The notes beneath the pieces were generated by a model, which saw nothing but the letters and a program-made list of their open reading frames with translations, ran no database searches and was not told where the DNA came from. This document shows positions 1,183 to 63,907 of a stretch of DNA of 64,000 nucleotides, one piece after another. The position numbers and the translations under genes are program-made. Source of the DNA: Vibrio sp. 10N.286.49.B1 (GTDB lineage: Bacteria > Pseudomonadota > Gammaproteobacteria > Enterobacterales > Vibrionaceae); assembly GCF_002873335.1 (NCBI RefSeq), contig NZ_MCUW01000011.1:54495-118494 (forward strand), written 5' to 3'. Position 1 is the stretch's first letter; every line of letters begins with the position of its first letter.

Positions 1183-1383
1183 AATGCGCCTCTTCGTTTC
1201 CTGATGCCTTCCTATTGTACGCTTAATGCTGAACTTGGATCCTTGATGCTTGATCCAGACTGCTCATCGGCTATACCATACCGCGCAAAGCGCCCTTATC
1301 GGCCGCACCAACTCGAATACGATACAAGGTAACGCAAAAAATGTTATCAACATCGTCCCAACGTTGCTTAGTAAGGAATAAAC

Positions 1384-2016
1384 GTGTTCAAGATACTTAT
1401 GTTGTTATGCGCTTTAATTGGTAGTGCGCCCTTAAAGGCAAAAGAAATATGGGATTGGAACACCTTGCTGCCAGAAAGCGCGAAACAGTTCGTCGACCCC
1501 TTTTTTTCTTTTTCGCCTGAGCAGCGCTACAATTTGATGACCATAATGGAGTATCAACAAGCGGACGCTAGCGATAAGGATAGCAAAAGCTACATCGACG
1601 CGCTCATGCGCTTTAGCGGAGAAAATATTGAGATCCTCACGCTGATTAAGCAGCGAGAAGAAATAGTGACGAAACACGCGAAGGCTTTACAGTCCATTAA
1701 CGAAGCGCTCATTGGTCAGGATGGCAGGCTTCCTGGTTATATCGTGCCCTTGGAGTTTGACAATAACATTGTCACTCAATTCTTACTGGTACCAACAGCC
1801 GGAGCGTGTATCCATACGCCACCTCCACCCGCCAACCAAATCGTGCTGGTTCACTACCCTAAAGGATTCGAGTTTGAGGGTTTATATACCCCTATTTGGA
1901 TTGAAGGCACCCTGCAATCTGAAGCCTCAAACCGCAGTGTTCAACTATCTGATGGTGAAACAACCATCTCGACGTCATATCAAATGGTAGCGAACAAGAT
2001 TGAACCCTACCAATAA
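1384..2016 (+). CDS. Exported DUF3299-domain protein
   Basis: 210 residues. A GTG start follows AAGGA at a good distance; an ATG five codons downstream is an alternative. The first 20 residues (MFKILMLLCALIGSAPLKA) form a signal peptide, so the protein is probably periplasmic. The conserved core lies in the second half: GYIVPLEF, TQFLLVPTAGACIHTPPPPANQIV and a GLYTPIWIEGTL stretch typical of DUF3299. The family often sits near permease or lipoprotein genes, but here it stands alone. No biochemical function is established. Confidence 0.85.
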   Translation: MFKILMLLCALIGSAPLKAKEIWDWNTLLPESAKQFVDPFFSFSPEQRYNLMTIMEYQQADASDKDSKSYIDALMRFSGENIEILTLIKQREEIVTKHAKALQSINEALIGQDGRLPGYIVPLEFDNNIVTQFLLVPTAGACIHTPPPPANQIVLVHYPKGFEFEGLYTPIWIEGTLQSEASNRSVQLSDGETTISTSYQMVANKIEPYQ

Positions 2017-2089
2017 CCATTATCTCGCCGTATTGAGTGCTAAACGTCGCAACTAAGACAAGAAGGGCTCATCACCAAGGCCCGTAGTC

Positions 2090-2896
2090 TTAAGACGTCA
2101 TTTCAGGAACCATTAAGGATAACGCCCTACTCTTTCTTATTTCACTAGGGCTAAAACCATAATATTTTTTAAACACCCGACTATAGTAATTGGGACAATA
2201 GAACCCACTCGAATACGCACTTGTTTTTATTGACTCTCCGCTATAGAGCAAGCGTAATGAGTACTTAAGTCTGATGACTTTCAACAATTGACTAAACGTA
2301 ATGTTTTCTTTATGTAACACTCGTTGTAATTGGGAAAAAGTCATATTTATCGATTGGCATAATTCTTCTGCTGACCACTTTTTGCTTATATCCATTCTCA
2401 TGGCGTTCGCTATCCTGTCGATATCGTGTGGAAACGAAATAACATTTGCAAGTTCATTAGGAGAAGCACGACGAATATAGTTCGCTATTGCCATAGTAAA
2501 CAATGCGTGAATAACACAAGAATCAACGCTATTAGTCACAAGAGACTTAGCCGATAGAAAATATTGTTCTATCGAATATCCGTCGCTATCATTTTTCCTA
2601 ATACCCCCTATATCAAACTTATCAATAAGTGGTCGAAATAGACTCTCTTCCATAGCAAATCTATTTATCTCTATCGCCAACTTGTTATCACATGCACTAA
2701 AAGACAGTCCAACATTTGAATACGACGGTATAAAAAGCACGATCGTCCCAAGACTTTCGTACATTTTACCATTCACACAGATAAACCCTTTCGCATTCTC
2801 GATCATAACTAGGTTATGCTTGGTGACAAGGTTCGATGACGTTAAGGTTTCACTATTAATTCGAATCGTCCGAAACAGACTGTCTACGCTACTCAA
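2090..2896 (-). CDS. AraC-family transcriptional regulator
   Basis: 268 residues. The last ~100 residues form the double helix-turn-helix of the AraC/XylS family (KKWSAEELCQSINMTFSQLQRVL, then a second helix ending in YYSRVFKKYYGFSPSEIRKS). The N-terminal ~160 residues are a divergent sensor domain resembling AraC regulators that do not bind a sugar. Its start overlaps the end of the upstream EAL gene by 8 bp, so the two are almost certainly co-transcribed and translationally coupled. Target and ligand are unknown. Low GC and many rare-looking codons suggest an accessory origin. Confidence 0.88.
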   Translation of the reverse strand: MSSVDSLFRTIRINSETLTSSNLVTKHNLVMIENAKGFICVNGKMYESLGTIVLFIPSYSNVGLSFSACDNKLAIEINRFAMEESLFRPLIDKFDIGGIRKNDSDGYSIEQYFLSAKSLVTNSVDSCVIHALFTMAIANYIRRASPNELANVISFPHDIDRIANAMRMDISKKWSAEELCQSINMTFSQLQRVLHKENITFSQLLKVIRLKYSLRLLYSGESIKTSAYSSGFYCPNYYSRVFKKYYGFSPSEIRKSRALSLMVPEMTS

Positions 2897-3725
2897 TGGC
2901 TAAGTCTACTGCTAACGACATCGGCTTGATTTTTTTGTCAATGTGGCTCGGTAACCGAGCAGAACATGACTTCGTTTCCTGCATTAGTGATAGCAAGTTT
3001 TTCACATCTGTAGGGTAGTAATAATAATACCCTTGCATATAGACATGTTCCATTAAATGCATTTTCCGTTGGCTCGCTGTTTCAACACCCTCCACCACTA
3101 AACGAGGCGCATATAACCCTAGCAACTCGGCTAGCATATTAATAATTTCATCATTATCATGATAAAGTAAATAGGATTTATCTAATTTTATTACATCCCA
3201 CTTCAAGTACTGCAACGCATGTGTTTTACTTTTATCATTATGACAGTAATCGTCTAGCCAAAATTCAACACCTTGATTTCTAAGCTTCTTAATATTTTTT
3301 GCTAATCCATGATAATTTAAAGATAGTTGAGTACAGGTGATTTCAATGGCCATGGGAAAGTCGATAATAGCAAGCAGGTTATTCACGAAATGGTCATTAT
3401 CGAGGCAACTCAAAGGTAAGTTAAACGACATCAACACATCATAATTTTTGATGTAAAAACGATAGTAATCGAGTTGTGCAAACATTAAACGCTGCAAAAA
3501 TTGATCATTGATCTGACTAAAGAAATCCTCACCATTGATCTGCTGCCCACTACAATCAATGACCTGGGTTAGCACCTCGTAAGCATACACTGTATTACTA
3601 ATCGGATGCACAATGGGTTGTAATTTGAATTCAAACTCGGCAAATACATCTTGATTAATGGTTGAGTATGCCAAAAACCGACTGTTTGAACCTACTTGAT
3701 GAATAGCGACTGGCATATTACTCAT
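2889..3725 (-). CDS. EAL-domain protein (c-di-GMP phosphodiesterase-like, loop degenerate)
   Basis: 278 residues, an EAL domain alone with no sensor or membrane segment. Most metal and catalytic positions are recognisable: E50 in the EVL form of EAL, N102, E128 (EIT), D158/D159, K180, E212 (VEGVE) and Q231. The loop normally written DDFGTG is DDYCHND here, and the acid after EIT is a cysteine. Activity may therefore be weak or lost, leaving a binding or protein-interaction role as in YdiV-type proteins. It is the first gene of a two-gene unit with the AraC regulator. Confidence 0.85.
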   Translation of the reverse strand: MSNMPVAIHQVGSNSRFLAYSTINQDVFAEFEFKLQPIVHPISNTVYAYEVLTQVIDCSGQQINGEDFFSQINDQFLQRLMFAQLDYYRFYIKNYDVLMSFNLPLSCLDNDHFVNNLLAIIDFPMAIEITCTQLSLNYHGLAKNIKKLRNQGVEFWLDDYCHNDKSKTHALQYLKWDVIKLDKSYLLYHDNDEIINMLAELLGLYAPRLVVEGVETASQRKMHLMEHVYMQGYYYYYPTDVKNLLSLMQETKSCSARLPSHIDKKIKPMSLAVDLAIE

Positions 3726-7884: not shown

Positions 7885-8733
7885 TTAACTCTCTCTGTTT
7901 TGGGTTGCAGGGGTTTTGCACAGGCGGTCAAGAATGATAGCCACAAGAACGATCGCTAATCCGGCCTCAAAACCTTGCGAGACATTCACAGTATTCAGTG
8001 CTCGAACGACGGGTTTACCCAACCCATCTGCACCCACGAGAGCAGAGATAACCACCATCGATAACGACAACATAATACATTGCGTCACCCCTGCCATGAT
8101 GTTTGGCATTGCGGCTGGAAGTTCAACATTGAACAACAGTTTCATTCGACTGGCACCGAATGCTTTACCGGCCTCGACCAACTCTTCTGGGACACGACTG
8201 ATGCCCAAGTAGGTCAAACGGATTGGAGCAGCAATAGCAAAAATAATGGTAGAGATAAGCCCTGGTACGACCCCTAAGCCAAATAAAACCAGCGTGGGAA
8301 TGAGGTAAACAAAAGTCGGGATGGTCTGCATCAAATCTAGAATCGGGCGCAATATGGTGTAAAGCCATGGCTTGTGCGCCGCCACGATCCCAACTGGCAC
8401 CCCGACTAACACCGAAATCATGGTCGCGCTCAATACCAACACAAAGGTTTCTAGCATCTCTTCCCAATAGCCTAAATTCATGATCAGCAGCAAGGCTGTA
8501 ACCACAAAAATGACCAGTGAAAGGCTACGATGTAAAAACCAAGCCAATAAAGCGGTCATAACGATAGGCACAGAAGGCGGAAACCACTTAAATAGGTCAA
8601 CCAACATCATGATCATCGATTCTAAGCTATACGACAGTGAGTCAAAAAAGCCCGCTGCATTGTAAGTTAGCCAATCAACAAAAGTGGCCATCCAATCGCC
8701 GAGAGGGATTTTGTGATTTGTAATAAAGTCCAT
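7885..8733 (-). CDS. choW: Choline ABC transporter, permease subunit
   Basis: 282 residues with about six hydrophobic segments and the binding-protein-dependent permease signature GISRVPEELVEAGKAFGAS. Closest in style to ProW/ChoW permeases of osmoprotectant importers. The N-terminus (MDFITNHKIPLGDWMATFVDWLTYNA) matches the ChoW form. It forms the membrane channel with ChoV and receives choline from ChoX. The stop codon is two bases from the choV start, indicating tight coupling. Confidence 0.93.
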   Translation of the reverse strand: MDFITNHKIPLGDWMATFVDWLTYNAAGFFDSLSYSLESMIMMLVDLFKWFPPSVPIVMTALLAWFLHRSLSLVIFVVTALLLIMNLGYWEEMLETFVLVLSATMISVLVGVPVGIVAAHKPWLYTILRPILDLMQTIPTFVYLIPTLVLFGLGVVPGLISTIIFAIAAPIRLTYLGISRVPEELVEAGKAFGASRMKLLFNVELPAAMPNIMAGVTQCIMLSLSMVVISALVGADGLGKPVVRALNTVNVSQGFEAGLAIVLVAIILDRLCKTPATQNRES

Positions 8734-8823
8734 TGTTACTCCTTAATGGTCTTCAATGTTTGTACGCTCTACTGCCATCGTTCAACCAGAACAGACACCA
8801 GCAGAGCAAAGTCAGTGCGTGGT

Positions 8824-9804
8824 TTAGATCTCTAAATACGATTTAACAGCCTCGGCTGCGTTGCTGCCATCACGAGCCGTCACTTTATTCAGCCACTTTG
8901 TTAGCACGTCAGGGTTCGCTTTGAGCCATGCTTTGGCCGCTGCATCTGGCTTAGTGTTATCGTTAAGTATGTTGCCCATCAGTTGGTTTTCCATTTCCAA
9001 ACTAAAGCTAAGGTTTTGCAGTAACTGCCCCACATTCGAACAAGTACTTAGGTAATCTTTACGAACGTTGGTGTAAACGCTCGCGCCACCATAATTTGGT
9101 CCAAAGTAGTCATTCCCCCCATCCAGATAAACCATGTCAAAATTACTGTTCATTGGGTGCGGAGCCCAACCAAGGAAGGCGATCCATTGTTCACGCTTAA
9201 CTGCGCGCTTAACTTGCGACATCATGCCCGCTTCACTGGACTCAACAAGATTGAAGTCTTTGAGGTCGAATGCATTGTTATCGATCATGTCTTGGATCAG
9301 ACGGTTACCGTCATTACCGGGTTCAATCCCGTAGATACGACCACGAAACCTATCGTCAAATTTGGCTAGGTCAGCAAAGCTTGTCACACCTGCGTCGTAG
9401 ACATATTTAGGTACCGCAAGCGTGTATTTCGCGCCTTCTAAATTCGCGCGCACGGTTTCCACCGAACCATCTTGGTGGTATTTGGCAATATCGGCTTCCA
9501 TCGTTGGCATCCAGTTACCCAGAAAGACATCGATGTCTTTGTTTGCCATTGATGAATAGGTCACAGGCACTGAAAGCAGTTGCGTGGAGGTCTTATAGCC
9601 GAGTCCCTGTAATACTTGCGTTGTGACAGCGGTTGTCGCAGTGATATCGGTCCAACCGACATCTGAAAAGCGAACAGTGTCGCACTGGTTCGCGTACACA
9701 GAGGACGCAGATAAACTCAGTAATAGTGCACTGCTGCCTAGCAATGTATGTCGAATGGTGGTGCGTTTACTCGCGTGAGGCTTATTTGTGTTATTCGTCA
9801 TCAT
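8824..9804 (-). CDS. choX: Periplasmic choline-binding protein
   Basis: Called from the ATG at 9804 (326 residues), where an AGGA site precedes two adjacent ATGs; a longer frame to 9948 is probably untranslated leader. The signal peptide ends near SSVYA, followed by NQCDTVRFSDVGWTDITATTAVT, the characteristic opening of ChoX/OpuAC-like proteins. The aromatic-rich binding residues expected of quaternary-amine binders occur through the protein (FLGNWMP, FLGWAPHPMN). It delivers choline to ChoWV. Confidence 0.92.
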   Translation of the reverse strand: MMTNNTNKPHASKRTTIRHTLLGSSALLLSLSASSVYANQCDTVRFSDVGWTDITATTAVTTQVLQGLGYKTSTQLLSVPVTYSSMANKDIDVFLGNWMPTMEADIAKYHQDGSVETVRANLEGAKYTLAVPKYVYDAGVTSFADLAKFDDRFRGRIYGIEPGNDGNRLIQDMIDNNAFDLKDFNLVESSEAGMMSQVKRAVKREQWIAFLGWAPHPMNSNFDMVYLDGGNDYFGPNYGGASVYTNVRKDYLSTCSNVGQLLQNLSFSLEMENQLMGNILNDNTKPDAAAKAWLKANPDVLTKWLNKVTARDGSNAAEAVKSYLEI

Positions 9805-23676: not shown

Positions 23677-25257
23677 ATGAGTTTTAAGAAGCAATTAGAA
23701 GAGCATTTTCAACAGTTTGATGCATCACCAATCTTATTCGTCGGTTCAGGTGTTTCACGACGATATTTAGGGGTGAATTGTTGGGAGGGGCTATTAAAAC
23801 AGTTCTCTGAAAAGTTAGGGGAACAACATGTCAGACTTAGAGCTCAATCCAACGGAGATCTAACTAAATATGCTCAAATTCTAGCGTCGATATATTCTCA
23901 GAAGTGGTGGGATACCGAAGACGCGAAAGATGTGATTGAGCACCAGAGCAACTTACTCATTGACGAGCAATCGCCTTTGAAGGTGTCTATCTCTCAGTAT
24001 ATTAGTCAAGCACATAATAACTTGACTGACGATCAAGAGTTGTTACGAGAAGTTGAGCTCCTTCGAAAAGCCAATATAGATGGCGTTATCACTACTAATT
24101 GGGATATTTTTTTGGAACAGCAGTTCCCTAAATTCACTCCATTTATTGGGCAAGACGGACTGATTACAGGCCGTAGCCATGGTATCGCTGAAATATATAA
24201 AATTCATGGTTGTTGTACAGAACCTAATTCTCTCGTACTTACCGAGTCCGACTATGATAAGTACCGCAAGAAAAATCCATACTTGTCATCCAAATTACTG
24301 ACTATGTTTATTGAGCGTCCCGTGATTTTTTTAGGGTACTCATTAACAGATGAACACATAGCCGAAATATTGGAAGACATTGTTAGCTGTTTCCCTAATT
24401 CTGGTCTTGAATTTTTAAAAAATAAGTTGCTTTTTGTTGAGTGGAAACCCGACCTAGAAGTCTCATCTGTTAGTGATTCGGTTATCCATAAAAAAATTCC
24501 TGTGAAATATGTACAAGCACCTAACTATGTCGAAATATTAGAAGTATTAGCAGAGACAAAGAAGCGGATACCTGCACATTTATTTAGGACGATTAAAGAT
24601 GAACTGTATGAATTGGTTCTAACTGATGATCCTAAAGGAAAACTATACGTGCGTGATTCTGAAACAATTGATGATGATAGCGTCTCAACCGAGTTTGTTG
24701 TTGGATATGGTGCTATTTCAATGGTTAAAAAATCAGAATCGCTTATGGCTTCAAGAGGTTTGATTGGCCTAGACCGATTAGATTTAATCAGAGAAGTTGT
24801 TTTTGAAAATGATAACTACCCGTCTGATGAAGTTGTCTCTAATGTACTTCCAAATCTATGTAAAGGTAATGCTCGCGTGCCTATCTTTAGATTCTTAAGG
24901 TTGGCGAACAAAATAAATGGTGATGGTACGTTGGTTGATGGGATTGAGTTTCCAGAGGGAGTGCTTGGAAGGTTTGATGTTGATGAAAATGCATTTAGAT
25001 CTGCGGGTGGAGAAGCGCGCAGAGCCGAAAGCATTGCAGCGCTAAGAGTAGGGGTAAATGAGCTTTATAAAGAAGACTTCGGTTTATTTATAAGAATGGT
25101 GCCATTTATGGACGTCGGGTTGCTTAAACGTGACTCGGACGACTTATTAAAGATACTAAAAAAGCACATTGATGAAGCACTAGCGACATCACTATCTAGT
25201 GGGTTCTGTAAGGTGGTTTGTTTGTATGACTTGATTAAAAATAGTAATCGATATTAA
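23677..25257 (+). CDS. SIR2-domain protein, probable defence NADase
   Basis: 526 residues. An N-terminal SIR2-like domain carries the NAD-binding GSGVS (residues 23-27), TTNWD (139-143, catalytic Asn and Asp) and KIHG with catalytic His177, followed by FLGYSLTDEHI (218-228). This pattern belongs to SIR2_2 proteins of prokaryotic immunity, which deplete NAD+ after phage sensing. Residues ~300-526 are an unrecognised C-terminal region, possibly the sensor. No partner gene (HerA, Argonaute or Thoeris ThsB) is adjacent. Base composition is lower in GC than its neighbours and it is flanked by repeats, both signs of transfer. Confidence 0.85.
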   Translation: MSFKKQLEEHFQQFDASPILFVGSGVSRRYLGVNCWEGLLKQFSEKLGEQHVRLRAQSNGDLTKYAQILASIYSQKWWDTEDAKDVIEHQSNLLIDEQSPLKVSISQYISQAHNNLTDDQELLREVELLRKANIDGVITTNWDIFLEQQFPKFTPFIGQDGLITGRSHGIAEIYKIHGCCTEPNSLVLTESDYDKYRKKNPYLSSKLLTMFIERPVIFLGYSLTDEHIAEILEDIVSCFPNSGLEFLKNKLLFVEWKPDLEVSSVSDSVIHKKIPVKYVQAPNYVEILEVLAETKKRIPAHLFRTIKDELYELVLTDDPKGKLYVRDSETIDDDSVSTEFVVGYGAISMVKKSESLMASRGLIGLDRLDLIREVVFENDNYPSDEVVSNVLPNLCKGNARVPIFRFLRLANKINGDGTLVDGIEFPEGVLGRFDVDENAFRSAGGEARRAESIAALRVGVNELYKEDFGLFIRMVPFMDVGLLKRDSDDLLKILKKHIDEALATSLSSGFCKVVCLYDLIKNSNRY

Positions 25258-25443
25258 TAAGCTAAAAGTGCATTAAAGGTGTATGACCTGCCACGAAATA
25301 CTTAGATTTCGACTTGTCATGGATGAGTAAAACTAGCCACTAATTCGTAGGTATTTTGAATAATTTACCTTAGCAGTGCTTATCCAAGCTCTCACAATTA
25401 CCACGGGGTCGTAACAGGGTTCTGTCCACAAACGAGTCAGCCC

Positions 25444-25473
25444 TGTCTTGGTCTGCGCTGTCTTGGTCTGCGC
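25444..25473. repeat. Two perfect tandem copies of a 15-mer
   Basis: TGTCTTGGTCTGCGC is present twice in succession and the second copy runs straight into the first of the ~240-bp repeats. Confidence 0.7.
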
Positions 25474-26635
25474 AGAATAAATTCTGGCATGTTACTGCTC
25501 CCACAAATAAAAACTAACCGTCATCCCCTTGAAAAAGGGGATCTCATTCAGCGCGTTGCGAACTCGATGTACTTAACTTAATCGGATTTTTCAATTGTCT
25601 ACGCATTTTGTGAGATCCTCACTTTCGTGAGGATGACGAATGTTATTAGTTGGAGGAAAAAGGAAACTAAACCGTTTATGTCCAAGAATATGCCCGTTCG
25701 GTTTTCATGAACGCAGAATAAATTCTGGCATGTTACTGCTCCCACAAATAAAACTAACCGTCATCCCCTTAAAAAGGGGATCTCATTCAGCGCATTGCGA
25801 ACTCGATGTACTTAACTTAATCGAATTTTTCAATTGTCTACGCGCTTTGTGAGATCCTCACTTTCGTGAGGATGACGAATGTTGTTAGTTGGAGGAAAAA
25901 GGAAACTAAACCGTTTATCTCCAAGAATATGCCCGTTCGGTTTTCATGAACGCTGAATAAATTCCGACATGTTACTGCCCGACAAATAAAACTAACCGTC
26001 ATCCCCTTGAAAAAGGGGATCTCATGCAGCGCGTTGCGAACTCGATGTACTTAACTTAATCGAATTTTTCAATTGTCTACGCGCTTTGTGAGATCCTCAC
26101 TTTCGTGAGGATGACGAACGTTGTTAGTTGGAGGAAAAAGGAGACTAAACCGTTTATGTCCAAGAATATGCCCGTTCGGTTTTCATGAACGCTGAATAAA
26201 TTCTGACATGTTACTGCCCGACAAATAAAACTAACCGCCCCCCCTTGAAAAAGGGGATCTTCGTCAGTGCGTTGTGAACCTATTCGTGTGTTATTCATTT
26301 CTATTTAAGTGAGTCACATGCTGATGAAGATCCTCGTTTTCACGAGGATGACGGCCTAATTGGGATGGGTAGAAGAGCAATAAGCTGAGAGCTTTATGTC
26401 CAAGAATGTTCCCGTTCGCTTTTCATGAGCGCAGAATAAATTCCGACATGTTACTGCCCGACAAATAAAGCTAACCGTCATCTCCTTGAAAAAGGGGATC
26501 TCATTCAGCGCGTTGCGAACTCGATGTACTTAACTTAATCGAATTTTTCAATTGTCTATGCGCTTTGTGAGATCCTCATTTTTGGTGAGGATGACGAATA
26601 TTGTTAGTTGGGGGAAAAAGGAAACGAAACTAATC
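25471..26635. repeat. Five tandem ~240-bp hairpin-rich repeats
   Basis: Units begin at about 25471, 25712, 25951, 26190 and 26430 (period 239-241 bp), each opening with CGC(A/T)GAATAAATTC. Inside each unit lie a left hairpin (ATCCCCTT/AAGGGGAT), a central stem (GGATCTCA/TGAGATCC), a right hairpin (ATCCTCAC/GTGAGGAT) and outer CGTCATCC/GGATGACG. Unit 4 differs in the central and right parts but keeps pairing by compensatory changes. A minimal relative with a single hairpin lies at 38021-38050. Open frames inside the units are accidental. Confidence 0.85.
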
Positions 26636-26914
26636 AAGCTCTATTGGTCTTCGACACTAACGTAGTTAGACCATTTCTAGCGCAAATGAACCATCGATTG
26701 GGTTCAGCTGCATTTTGGCACCTTTGAGCTTCCATGCGGATTCATTCATTAACCGTTTTAACGCTGCACTTGGTTAATCAATCACGTTTTTATTCTCATC
26801 GATAATAAGAATATTTGCCACTTAACGAACAAAAGTACGTAGGAAGCAGAGACGTTATCGACAGTGAGTAAATTTTGTTTCGTCAAAACGACAGGCATTA
26901 AACAGGAGACAAGG

Positions 26915-27637
26915 ATGAACATCCTCATTATTGGTGGTTCCGGTGGCATTGGATTGGCGTTGGTTGAACACTTTATTGCAACGAGTAAAGCGGCAACGGT
27001 TCATGCGACATATTGTCACCATTCGCCTCAACTGACGTCGCCAGAGATCATCTCGCCCAAAATCGTTTGGCATTCACTTGACGTCACTTCAGAAAAAGAC
27101 ATTCAAGCGCTGGCGGGAGCCATCCCAGACATTGACATGGTCATCAACGCCGTTGGCTTTTTACATCAACAAGGACACATGCCCGAGAAATCAATCGCTC
27201 AATTTGATCCTGATTTTTTCCAAAAAAATATACAACTTAATACCACCTCCACCCTGTTATTGGCAAAGCACTTTGCCACTCGGCTTCGAACAAGCACGCC
27301 CACTTACTTTGTCGCTCTGTCGGCTCGTATTGGTAGCATTGAGGATAACCAGTTGGGGGGATGGGTCAGTTACCGCTGCTCTAAGGCGGCGTTAAATATG
27401 GCGATTAAAACGATCAGCATTGAGTGGCAATATAAACACCCCAACTGCTGTGTCTTCTCCTTTCATCCTGGAACTACAGATACGGCGCTATCGACGCCTT
27501 TTCAACGCAATGTTCCAAAGGCCAAACTCTTTACGACAAGTTATGTGGCGACTCAGTTAGTGACATTGCTCGATACCCTATCGCCGACAGACACGGGAAA
27601 ATTTTTCAGCTTTGATGGCAGTGAAATACCGTGGTGA
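26915..27637 (+). CDS. SDR-family NAD(P)-dependent oxidoreductase
   Basis: 240 residues from the ATG at 26915, preceded by AGGAGACAAGG. The N-terminus MNILIIGGSGGIGLALVEHF is the SDR cofactor site (GxxxGxG); NAVGF follows as the NNAG equivalent, and the active site is S...YRCSKAALNMA (YxxxK). The C-terminal FHPGTTDTALSTPFQRNVP is typical of a CsgA/YciK-like SDR subgroup. Cytosolic; substrate unknown. It stands alone after the repeat block. Confidence 0.9.
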   Translation: MNILIIGGSGGIGLALVEHFIATSKAATVHATYCHHSPQLTSPEIISPKIVWHSLDVTSEKDIQALAGAIPDIDMVINAVGFLHQQGHMPEKSIAQFDPDFFQKNIQLNTTSTLLLAKHFATRLRTSTPTYFVALSARIGSIEDNQLGGWVSYRCSKAALNMAIKTISIEWQYKHPNCCVFSFHPGTTDTALSTPFQRNVPKAKLFTTSYVATQLVTLLDTLSPTDTGKFFSFDGSEIPW

Positions 27638-30771: not shown

Positions 30772-30796
30772 TACCGCTGTCCCTAGTGCAATCGTT

Positions 30797-30817
30797 ACTT
30801 ATTACTTATTACTTATT
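30797..30817. repeat. Heptanucleotide tandem repeat (ACTTATT)3
   Basis: Three perfect copies in the arsR-ACR3 gap. Slippage could change the spacing between promoter elements. Confidence 0.7.
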
Positions 30818-30829
30818 ACAACCAATTAA

Positions 30830-37626: not shown

Positions 37627-38223
37627 TCAACCATGAAGTACGTATGTCCTTCACTCTTGCTTTAATAGTAGCGATATAAATCATCAATAAGTAGTGAGAA
37701 GTGGGGAATAGAAGGCTTTCATCACTGGTCTGCGATTATAATTACCACCGCCAAATCAGTTATAGGACAGAATAGTTCGATCAGAAATGTAGATTTTTCA
37801 TGCCGTTTTAAGCCCGCATCGACAATACTAAGACTTGATCATTTTTAGATGTATCAAGAATACCAAGCCTAAGAAGATGACAATTAAGATTGATGAATTT
37901 TAAAAACGTTACTGGACAAAAGCAGTCCTTAATTAGCAATCAAAATAGCCAGTGATTCGTCATTCCTTTGAAGAAAGGAGCCTACCGACAGCGCTCGCTG
38001 AACCCACAAATAAACACTAACCGTCATCCCCTTGAAAAAGGGGATGACGGCCTAATTTGGATGGTTTGAAGAGCGGCAAGCGGCACCGAAAGGGAAAAGA
38101 ATAGTCTAGATCACCTGACCGCTTAACTTGATACAGCGCTAAAACGACCAATCTTTACTGTAAATAATCAGACTTTACTGGAACCAAACAAACGTGATTG
38201 TCCTCCGACAAATTCTCATATAC
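37627..38223. other. Intergenic region with a minimal hairpin repeat
   Basis: About 600 bp between two minus-strand genes. The only notable structure is the hairpin repeat described separately at 38021-38050. Confidence 0.4.
38021..38050. repeat. Solo hairpin repeat related to the 25-26 kb array
   Basis: CCGTCATCCCCTT and AAGGGGATGACGG around a GAAA loop, preceded by the same ACAAATAAA.ACTAA leader as the large units. It looks like the ancestral or collapsed form lacking the internal stems. Confidence 0.8.
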
Positions 38224-44630: not shown

Positions 44631-44737
44631 TTATTCATCCTTAAATATCCTGAAGCAAACGTAAATGGCTCATCTCATCATTAAATCAGTACAGCAGCAT
44701 TACATCCAAGTTTTAAGTCTTGGCCGTTAACTAACCC

Positions 44738-44779
44738 CTAGCATCTAGCACCTAGCACCTAGCACCTAGCACCTAGACC
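44738..44779. repeat. Heptanucleotide tandem repeat (CTAGCAC)
   Basis: Six units from 44738: CTAGCAT, four perfect CTAGCAC, then CTAGACC. It lies between two minus-strand genes. Confidence 0.85.
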
Positions 44780-48647: not shown

Positions 48648-48810
48648 TAATGAGACGGTTTTCTCCCCTTCTTGTCTGCCAACATGAATACCCCCAGCCT
48701 CTTTGGCGATCAAAACCTACGATTAACAAGGTTAATAATGAACACCACTTAACGAATAAGCCGCCAGCGTTATTAGTTTGTTATCCTTATACTCAATCAA
48801 ACACCGTCAT

Positions 48811-48858
48811 ACATCTACATCTACATCTACATCTACATCTACATCTACATCTACATCT
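48811..48858. repeat. Hexanucleotide microsatellite (ACATCT)8
   Basis: Eight perfect copies with a partial ninth, downstream of the short TetR gene. A likely length-variable locus. Confidence 0.9.
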
Positions 48859-48924
48859 ACAGCTCATCAGCCTACCATCCGTTAACCCATAATTATTTCA
48901 TTAATAATTACATGAACTTAATAA

Positions 48925-54704: not shown

Positions 54705-54807
54705 AAATAACACCACGTCAAGTAATGAGTAATGGGTAATGAGTAATGAGTAATGAGTAATGCTACCACCGATAAAACGAGTGACTGCGCATGCTCACGT
54801 GTTAGAT
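54705..54807 (-). repeat. attC site containing a heptanucleotide repeat
   Basis: ATAACACCACGTCAAG at left and GTGTTAGAT (GTTRRRY) at right. The variable central part is six tandem AGTAATG units. Confidence 0.6.
54721..54762. repeat. Heptanucleotide tandem repeat (AGTAATG)6
   Basis: Six units, the third being GGTAATG, inside the loop of an attC-like site. Confidence 0.9.
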
Positions 54808-55904: not shown

Positions 55905-56093
55905 TAAGGCCCAATTAATGCGTCGCAACAAACAATATAGTGACTTACTTTCCGAAAGTTAGAGTAAAAGAATAACCATCGCGTAGCAAATGTATTAGAC
56001 CGTCATCTTAGTGGCAACGAGGGTCTCGCAAAGCGTGTGACTCACTTAAAATAAAACCAAGCGGTACGAATCGACTAGAAACGCTTTTATGTG
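55905..56093 (-). repeat. attC site
   Basis: Left GTATAAGGCCC; right AAGCGGTACGAATCGACTAGAAACGCTTTTATG, nearly the same as the 61.3-kb site. The right core holds the stop codon of the gene at 56087. Confidence 0.6.
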
Positions 56094-62619: not shown

Positions 62620-63907
62620 TATAATGGACACACACCTAAAAAGAAATCTAAAGCACTCCCGTATTCAAAGCGATAATTAACTCCATACTTTAGCTTTCTT
62701 CAATCTATTTTGGTGAAGTTGTCTAGTTTGTTAAGGGACGTTACTTACGTTTAGGCATTGGGCGAACGACTATATCCAGAATTTTCACTGGCCTATGGGT
62801 AGGAGCGGCAGTGAAAATGACGCTTACTCTAATTGATAGATGTGCATCTTTTTCTTTTTTAAGGCAGCCTTAGCTTGGACTGTATGAACGTGACACCCAA
62901 CCGCTGTCGAGCGTGCCTTTTCTAACGCGGTACATACCGTTAACCAACTCTTCTGATTGAAATTTAAACGCGCCAAAATAGCAGGTTGATTGGCATCCAT
63001 ACTGGCTTTGCCTTCGCGAAATAGACGTGCAGTCCAGTCTACTAACTCAATGTAGTCGATGAGCCGAAACGGAATACCATCTAGCATTTCATTCGTCGGA
63101 TTGCCGATAAAAGGGTGTAAACATGGGGCTGTTGCTAAATTTTTACCCAGCGCATCGATTCTGGCTCTTATCGAGGTAAACTCCGATGTTTCAGGGGTTG
63201 CGGCAATACCGGCTCGAATAGGATTCAAGTCGACATACGCCATTGCGGCGGCAAGGGCTTTTTCATCAAGCAACGCTTGGCTTTTGAAGCGGCTTTCCCA
63301 AAAGTGCCCTGTACAATTATCTTCTCGATTCGCCCTACACGCTATGTCGTAATTGAGCTCTTTCATAAACCAACTTAAGCTCCACAGCCTTTCTCGCCAT
63401 ACTTCAATGAGCTCAAGACACTTGTCTTCCTCTGCTTGATTGGTGAGTTGCTTATTGTGCCAACGCTCTATGAGTACGGGTAATTTATGCGCACGCCCCC
63501 AATGCTCGACCACTTCATTCGGTGATAATGTTAACGCTTTGTCTTTATTGATATGAAGCACCAGATGATAGTGATTACTCATGATGGCGTAGGCGCAAAC
63601 ATCGATGCAGTATACCTCCGTCAGAGCGTGAATTTTTCGCTCTATCCACTCTCTTCGATGTTCGTAGCTCGTGTTGGTGAGCGGGTCATCGCCGCACAAA
63701 AAACTGCGCCTCACACAGCGTGAGACGCAGTGGTAATACGAAGTCGCATCAACGGAAATAAGCTGTTTTCTGGCTGTTGTCAAAATGAGGTCCGCTATGA
63801 AGGTTTTAAATAACTTAGCAGTTCTCTTTTAATGAGATTGTTGGTGAGTCGGCGAATTGGACAAAATCAAACTAATTTCATACTTTTGGTGTGTGTCCTT
63901 TTAATCA
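62620..63907 (-). mobile_element. IS200/RAYT-like Y1 transposase element
   Basis: Bounded by GGACACACACC at 62626-62636 and its inverted copy GGTGTGTGTCC at 63888-63898. Contains one transposase gene. A hairpin (TTTTCACTG/CAGTGAAAA) lies just beyond the gene at about 62781-62818. Homologous pieces lie at 59335-59405, 61876-62073 and from 63908 on. No target duplication was recognised. Confidence 0.75.
62824..63783 (-). CDS. Y1 (IS200/REP-associated-like) transposase
   Basis: 319 residues. MTTARKQLISVDATSYYHCVSRCVRRSFLCG and YAIMSNHYHLVLHI, with the metal-binding HYH (H71, H73), identify Transposase_17 of the Y1/HUH type. WFMKELNYDIACRANREDNCTGHFWESRFKSQALLDEKALAAAMAYVDLNPIRAG is the usual C-terminal half with FWESRFKSQ. 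These enzymes cut and join single-stranded DNA. The gene appears intact. Confidence 0.9.
   Translation of the reverse strand: MTTARKQLISVDATSYYHCVSRCVRRSFLCGDDPLTNTSYEHRREWIERKIHALTEVYCIDVCAYAIMSNHYHLVLHINKDKALTLSPNEVVEHWGRAHKLPVLIERWHNKQLTNQAEEDKCLELIEVWRERLWSLSWFMKELNYDIACRANREDNCTGHFWESRFKSQALLDEKALAAAMAYVDLNPIRAGIAATPETSEFTSIRARIDALGKNLATAPCLHPFIGNPTNEMLDGIPFRLIDYIELVDWTARLFREGKASMDANQPAILARLNFNQKSWLTVCTALEKARSTAVGCHVHTVQAKAALKKKKMHIYQLE

Follow-up and report, generated by a model that had tools for sequence, protein, structure and literature searches.

A tandem array of CGTC-tagged, REP-like hairpin dimers in a Vibrio genome

CGTC-type REPs and the layout of the Vibrio array

The REPs of the CGTC class, which were described together with proposed roles by Di Nocera et al. 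2013 (PMC3733652), are characterised in the portions of that paper used here by a CGTC (or TGTC/CCTC) tag at one end, an 8-9-bp stem starting with AT, a 4-5-nt loop and a short unpaired tail that mostly fits CCA. They occur predominantly as head-to-head dimers, have no dedicated transposase and no known mobilising enzyme, and rarely form clusters, dimer clusters reiterated with flanking DNA being described there for GTAG REPs; the Neisseria CGTC-1 family is equated with dRS3. The word "Vibrio" has no occurrence in the main text of that paper as used here, and the literature excerpts that we searched contained no description of CGTC-type repeats in Vibrio.

The window, that is, the whole 64,000-nucleotide stretch of Vibrio DNA that was analysed, contains five head-to-tail units at about 25471-26630, spaced by 239, 239, 239 and then 240 bp; the complete array of five CGTC-REP dimers with their flanks, delimited by repeat period, occupies 25471-26635 on the + strand. 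The initial annotation had described five tandem units of ~240 bp, and a period of 239-240 bp was recovered. Each core of ~120 bp comprises, in this order, a CGTC-hairpin, a spacer and a hairpin-GACG. The A-type cores of units 1 (25518-25638, a CGTC hairpin pair facing outward), 2 (25758-25877), 3 (25996-26116) and 5 (26475-26596), all on the + strand, were delimited from sequence, family match and single-stranded DNA (ssDNA) fold, and read GGATCTCATTCAG ... TGAGATCCTCAC with small changes among them. The B-type core of unit 4 (26235-26353, +), in which the left tag is damaged, was delimited from sequence, family match and comparison with other copies, and reads GGATCTTCGTCAG ... CTGATGAAGATCCTCGT. 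The stems ATCCCCTT/AAGGGGAT and ATCCTCAC/GTGAGGAT are 8 bp long with AT as their first two bases. Among the pattern matches in the genome the loops are GAAA, GCAG or GCAA (few copies deviate) and the tail after the hairpin reads CTC/CTT; the tag is CGTC in all 55 strand-counted pattern matches, and TGTC variants are also present among copies.

The left and right hairpins and the complementary central arms that had been proposed for each unit are present in the sequence and in ssDNA folds, and the letters agree for the central arms (GGATCTCA/TGAGATCC in four units, GATCTTCgTCAG/CTGATGAAGATC in unit 4) and for the right hairpin (CTCAC/GTGAG versus CTCGT/ACGAG), unit 5 having CTCAT plus an inserted base. 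The proposed enclosure of every unit by CGTCATCC/GGATGACG holds only in part: the left arm of unit 4 is CCGCCCCCCCTTG, and unit 5 has CGTCATCT. This outer stem and the two hairpins compete for bases, such that only CGTC/GACG remains of it when the hairpins are formed. Elsewhere in the window, the single-hairpin relative already noted at 38021-38050 (+) is a fused palindrome tagged with CGTC at both ends and devoid of a spacer, identified by pattern and family match (palindrome 38022-38049; pattern in 0 of 100 shuffles), and a degenerate partial copy of the family lies at 56001-56051 on the - strand, identified by family match. Short tandem repeats with periods of 6 and 7, which are possibly phase-variable, were also seen in the window at 48810-48861, 44737-44776, 54721-54762 and 30795-30819.

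Compared with CGTC-1 as presented in the portions of PMC3733652 used here, the Vibrio elements share the CGTC tag, the 8-bp stem starting with AT, the 4-nt loop, the head-to-head dimers, the location between unidirectional and convergent genes and the lack of a dedicated transposase, but they differ in their tail (CTC/CTT rather than CCA) and in their clusters, which are common in this Vibrio genome and rare there. Since the published description is matched in every feature except the tail consensus and the low frequency of clusters, we file the elements as a Vibrio family of CGTC-1-like REPs; the array looks like a further instance, in Vibrio, of an established class and not like a novel structured RNA. 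The initial annotation had known of no described function for the element, whereas the class and its proposed roles had already been published in the paper cited. The dRS3 repeats of the neisserial intergenic mosaic elements (excerpts of PMC3898611) are likewise 20-bp palindromes with 6+8+6 geometry in intergenic arrays with other repeats, but have arms reading ATCCCC or ATCCTC, and the literal dRS3 pattern matched one place in the Vibrio genome, no more than its reversed control. GTAG REPs, BIMEs and REPINs with RAYT, as covered by the parts of PMC2817692 and PMC3116915 used here, are also palindromic intergenic repeats in pairs and arrays; the Vibrio family differs in its CGTC tag and in that no associated RAYT was found. 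Finally, the ERIC-like RU-1f repeats of Vibrio (PMC2759123, in part) are dispersed, intergenic and of ~100-170 bp as well, but constitute a separate family, a distinction drawn from their description.

Hairpin pairing and the mosaic structure of unit 4

Folding of all five cores as ssDNA was more stable than that of most shuffled sequences (z -3.2 to -5.8), and the minimum-energy fold corresponded to the branched form of the initial annotation in units 1-3; unit 4 folded without the outer stem and unit 5 as one long hairpin. RNA folding of the three cores tried gave z values of -4.3 to -7.6 on both strands, with energies (+/-) of -42.3/-38.8, -51.4/-50.0 and -42.3/-38.0, the + strand thus being slightly more stable each time. 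The RNA of units 1 and 3 formed a long imperfect hairpin on both strands, and unit 4 was branched on the + strand.

Covariation was assessed over 66 near-complete copies (65 distinct) chosen by hand from 94 family matches. The named structure was paired in 88.8% of cells versus 86.1% in shuffles, double changes occurred at 13 of 30 pairs versus 9.3 (13 being reached by 5 of 500 shuffles), and the double-change cells numbered 90 versus 39.9. The covariation score was 0.164 compared with 0.115 in shuffles and 0.028-0.088 in slid versions of the structure, although kinship alone can lift this score above shuffles, as the tool itself warns. The count of "further pair types" went in the opposite direction (31, below 34.1 in shuffles). 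Pairing was high in the left hairpin (97.3%), right hairpin (93.6%) and outer stem (93.4%) and lower in the central stems (80.8% and 73.3%), where one pair formed in 15 of 65 rows. RNAalifold predicted only six pairs, which all belong to the left hairpin; its covariation term was -0.3. Together, the helix percentages and RNAalifold give good support for both hairpins and weak support for the central stem. Because the hairpins covary over the 66 copies, their pairing is maintained across copies.

Unit 4 had been taken as evidence that both arms of the central stem changed together in compensation. Comparison in 30-base steps showed that the region of unit 4 is 97-100% identical to unit 3 up to ~26233, 37-83% identical from there to ~26413, and 90-93% identical thereafter to 26473. 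By contrast, its middle stretch is 83-100% identical to a B-type copy (L013), reaching 96.5% over 113 core bases, and a longer search found a place on contig C8 with 97% identity over 26227-26403. These comparisons show that unit 4 contains a recombination or gene-conversion tract at approximately 26240-26400 (+, ends within about 30 bases) acquired from another dispersed subfamily; because L013 is situated where its contig stops, the left boundary is placed by the drop in identity to unit 3 and by other B copies. Unit 4 is thus not a member of the array in which both arms changed, and does not support compensation. It is the recombinant that the initial annotation had named as a refutation, though from a related donor subfamily rather than an unrelated sequence. 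Mixing of tracts within units is also seen in the reverse arrangement, as another hybrid copy (L016) combines an A-type left arm with a B-type right arm and, judged by eye, has a broken central stem. Thus, of the earlier proposal that the folded form is kept by selection, hairpin covariation over 66 copies stands in favour, and the evidence from unit 4, the weak central pairing and L016 count against it. These results caution that "compensatory" changes between neighbouring repeats may stem from recombination between subfamilies.

Dispersal, growth of arrays and gene context

The family is dispersed throughout its own 5.15-Mb genome, as had been suggested from the window: the hairpin pattern gave 55 strand-counted matches (27 forward and 28 reverse, one palindromic place being counted twice) versus 0 for a reversed control pattern, BLASTN of one unit returned 49 matching pieces, and several clusters of hairpin repeats exist. 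With the best five candidates scored per genome, 14 of the 148 genomes examined in the genus matched the unit, its own included. Of the 94 family matches, 75 cover 106 nt or more of the ~121-nt core, and the unit had no counterpart in plasmid and phage collections. Scanning named genomes with the pattern located the left hairpin in at least 10 named Vibrio species as well as in Bacteroidota and other phyla. Among the matches listed, a facing hairpin was present within 190 nt at 35 of 56 Vibrio hits and 40 of 62 others, compared with 57 of 2082 random places, once 6 short stretches had been set aside.

Related arrangements were observed at several other loci. An array of 131-132-bp units interrupted by an N run (L010 / L311, G000:C37) lies downstream of a 1366-aa ORF that resembles rpoC by eye, and another genome of the genus contains a hairpin array of alternating orientation with an 84-bp period (L100, G022:C1). 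Similar outward-facing hairpin pairs occur in BMS3Abin03 (L133, L192-L195, L208 and L210) and in Bacteroidales (e.g., L113), where by eye they are contained in elements bounded by inverted repeats that resemble GGGGCTGTCTAAAAAG.

One orthologous site carries a single element in V. variabilis (L103) and in V. gelatinilyticus (L146) and five in V. thalassae (L151), the latter recurring every 143-144 bp with adjoining DNA included; the counts of 1, 1 and 5 suggest that arrays grow in place. At another site, one gap is occupied by an element in the genome of the window (L017) and in three further species (L097, L146 and L196), the hairpin stems being different. The repeated unit extends beyond the core, since ~50-80 bp of flank per side travel with many cores in its own genome, and many of the strongest of the dozens of matches in the related genome G044 have nearly identical ends ~207 bp apart. 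A motif resembling TGTCCAAAAAYG recurs near both unit ends in its own genome, which would make slippage with a period near 240 possible. By eye, neither a clear terminal inverted repeat nor a target duplication was seen at Vibrio unit ends, and a synteny search for empty sites turned up just two kinds of place, those occupied in every species compared and those with wider rearrangement; mobility is therefore something that we infer.

Two further observations concern L362. A group II intron (RF02012, RF00029) at 1379-3121 lies within the TTTCTGTCC end motif of a G044 repeat unit; among the intron junctions listed, 2 of the 8 on the 3' side fall within repeat units, and 3 of the 8 on the 5' side have TTNTGTCC at their end. 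At 8370-8960, similarity to two other species (L412 and L413) stops on either side of a two-dimer cluster, and these breaks fall at TGTCC-like and GCCCC-like ends.

The elements are scarce between divergent genes (2 of 58 sites versus 48 of 153 element-free gaps of at least 100 bp) and frequent between convergent genes (25 of 58 versus 25 of 153), with 31 of 58 versus 80 of 153 between tandem genes. These counts were made with a simple custom ORF caller at 38 Vibrio loci among the matches listed plus the loci of its own genome, with 14 edge sites left out, and the same gene-orientation preference is reported in the portions of PMC3733652 used here. In the window, the array starts 213 bp downstream of a gene at 23677-25257 (+) encoding a 526-aa protein with a SIR2_2 domain, as the initial annotation had indicated, and the match of this protein to the PADLOC model PDC-S25 (1.4e-155) marks it as a candidate defence gene. 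No tie between the array and the SIR2 gene was found. Since other arrays of the genome adjoin other reading frames, the adjacency is most simply a coincidence, and the array at this locus probably contributes little, except perhaps by influencing the 3' ends of transcripts.

Possible origins of the units and implications

We consider it very probable that the array represents clustered REPs of the CGTC-tagged class. Each core is a head-to-head dimer of two hairpins with different stems, each with a CGTC tag, an 8-bp stem starting with AT and a 4-nt loop, separated by a spacer, and flanking DNA travels with the dimer to give a dispersed unit of ~207 bp in G044 and ~240 bp here. The units may be spread by an enzyme while in the form of folded DNA, either single-stranded or cruciform, and arrays may lengthen via slippage or unequal exchange between repeats. 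The arms would stay complementary either because the folded DNA is the recognised form or because template-switch repair restores them.

Dispersal of the 207-240-bp unit with fairly constant ends could also be expected of a classical MITE, a DNA transposon that is non-autonomous, has terminal inverted repeats and depends on an IS transposase for its movement, and the similar Bacteroidales and BMS3Abin03 pairs sit within elements with outer inverted repeats (by eye). This origin is nonetheless unlikely, given the absence of a clear terminal inverted repeat and of a target duplication by eye and the failure of the synteny search to reveal an empty site. A rather doubtful possibility is that the Vibrio CGTC-dimer arrays are sites of DNA-level exchange, which would swap tracts, mark synteny breakpoints around accessory genes (possibly SIR2) and offer the end motif TTTCTGTCC as a group II intron landing site; the same role has been suggested for dRS3 arrays in Neisseria.

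Movement by a genome-encoded RAYT tyrosine transposase, as in a REPtron-type system, would agree with the REP-like architecture and with three weak NF047646 matches in the genome. Excerpts of PMC12625758 mention a RAYT in a Vibrio, not the CGTC-type repeats. All three NF047646 matches are below the curated cut-off (best 1.9e-7). One of them is a 319-aa RAYT-like protein encoded in the window at 62824-63783 (-), and CGTCATCC is absent from the window after 56382 and hence from the vicinity of this gene; the other two places have no CGTC pattern match nearby. In addition, PF01797 gave 0 matches in its own genome and occurs in 8 of 14 element-bearing genomes versus 71 of 148 genomes of the genus overall, and none of 30 RAYT-like loci of the genus, taken from a longer list, carries the family hairpin (L334 has one unrelated hairpin). 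Most RAYT-like matches in the genus are below the NF047646 cut-off, which is reached in 4 of 148 genomes. The hairpin repeats did not flank a transposase gene, a comparison that covered RAYT-type genes. On the strength of the PF01797 result, the loci devoid of the family hairpin and the sub-threshold NF047646 matches, RAYT is not supported as a partner, and such a system is improbable.

An RNA made from one strand is expected to favour G-U over A-C mismatches. Mismatches were counted in 124 distinct copies out of 172 raw matches of at least 90 nt, with identical copies merged and N-containing ones removed, and therefore come from related copies rather than independent events. In the hairpins they were balanced (37 G-T versus 43 A-C; left 12/14, right 25/29), the left-hairpin counts being biased towards pairing because the left hairpins of L111-L211 were found by exact pattern. 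The split was less even in the outer stem (21 G-T and 14 A-C) and in the lower central stem (56 and 102, dominated by one position), the central stem having 23 and 25. The hairpins thus show no one-strand G-U bias, and an even split of this kind would be expected of a palindrome at the DNA level. A structured non-coding RNA or 3'-UTR element produced from a single strand, with a selected fold, is highly improbable despite the strong RNA folding with slightly lower energy on the + strand, the covariation over 66 copies, the scarcity of sites between divergent genes and the argument for transcription of many REPs in the portions of PMC3733652 used here, since folding is strong on both strands, hairpin mismatches are balanced, the hybrid L016 has its central stem broken (by eye), Rfam at the gathering threshold returned no match in the whole window, and 25200-26950 contains 0 sigma-70-like promoters versus 4.1 in shuffles.

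In the parts of their paper used here, Di Nocera et al. regarded G-T pairs, together with a position close to the ends of genes, as pointing to a function in RNA (PMC3733652). That position is reproduced in the CGTC-type family of Vibrio, for which the balanced G-T and A-C mismatches weaken the argument from G-T pairs. As the genus comprises species that carry the elements and others that apparently do not, with subfamilies within one genome and a site that differs between one and five copies, the Vibrio family offers a workable system for finding the enzyme of CGTC REPs and for addressing whether pairing matters at the level of DNA or RNA.
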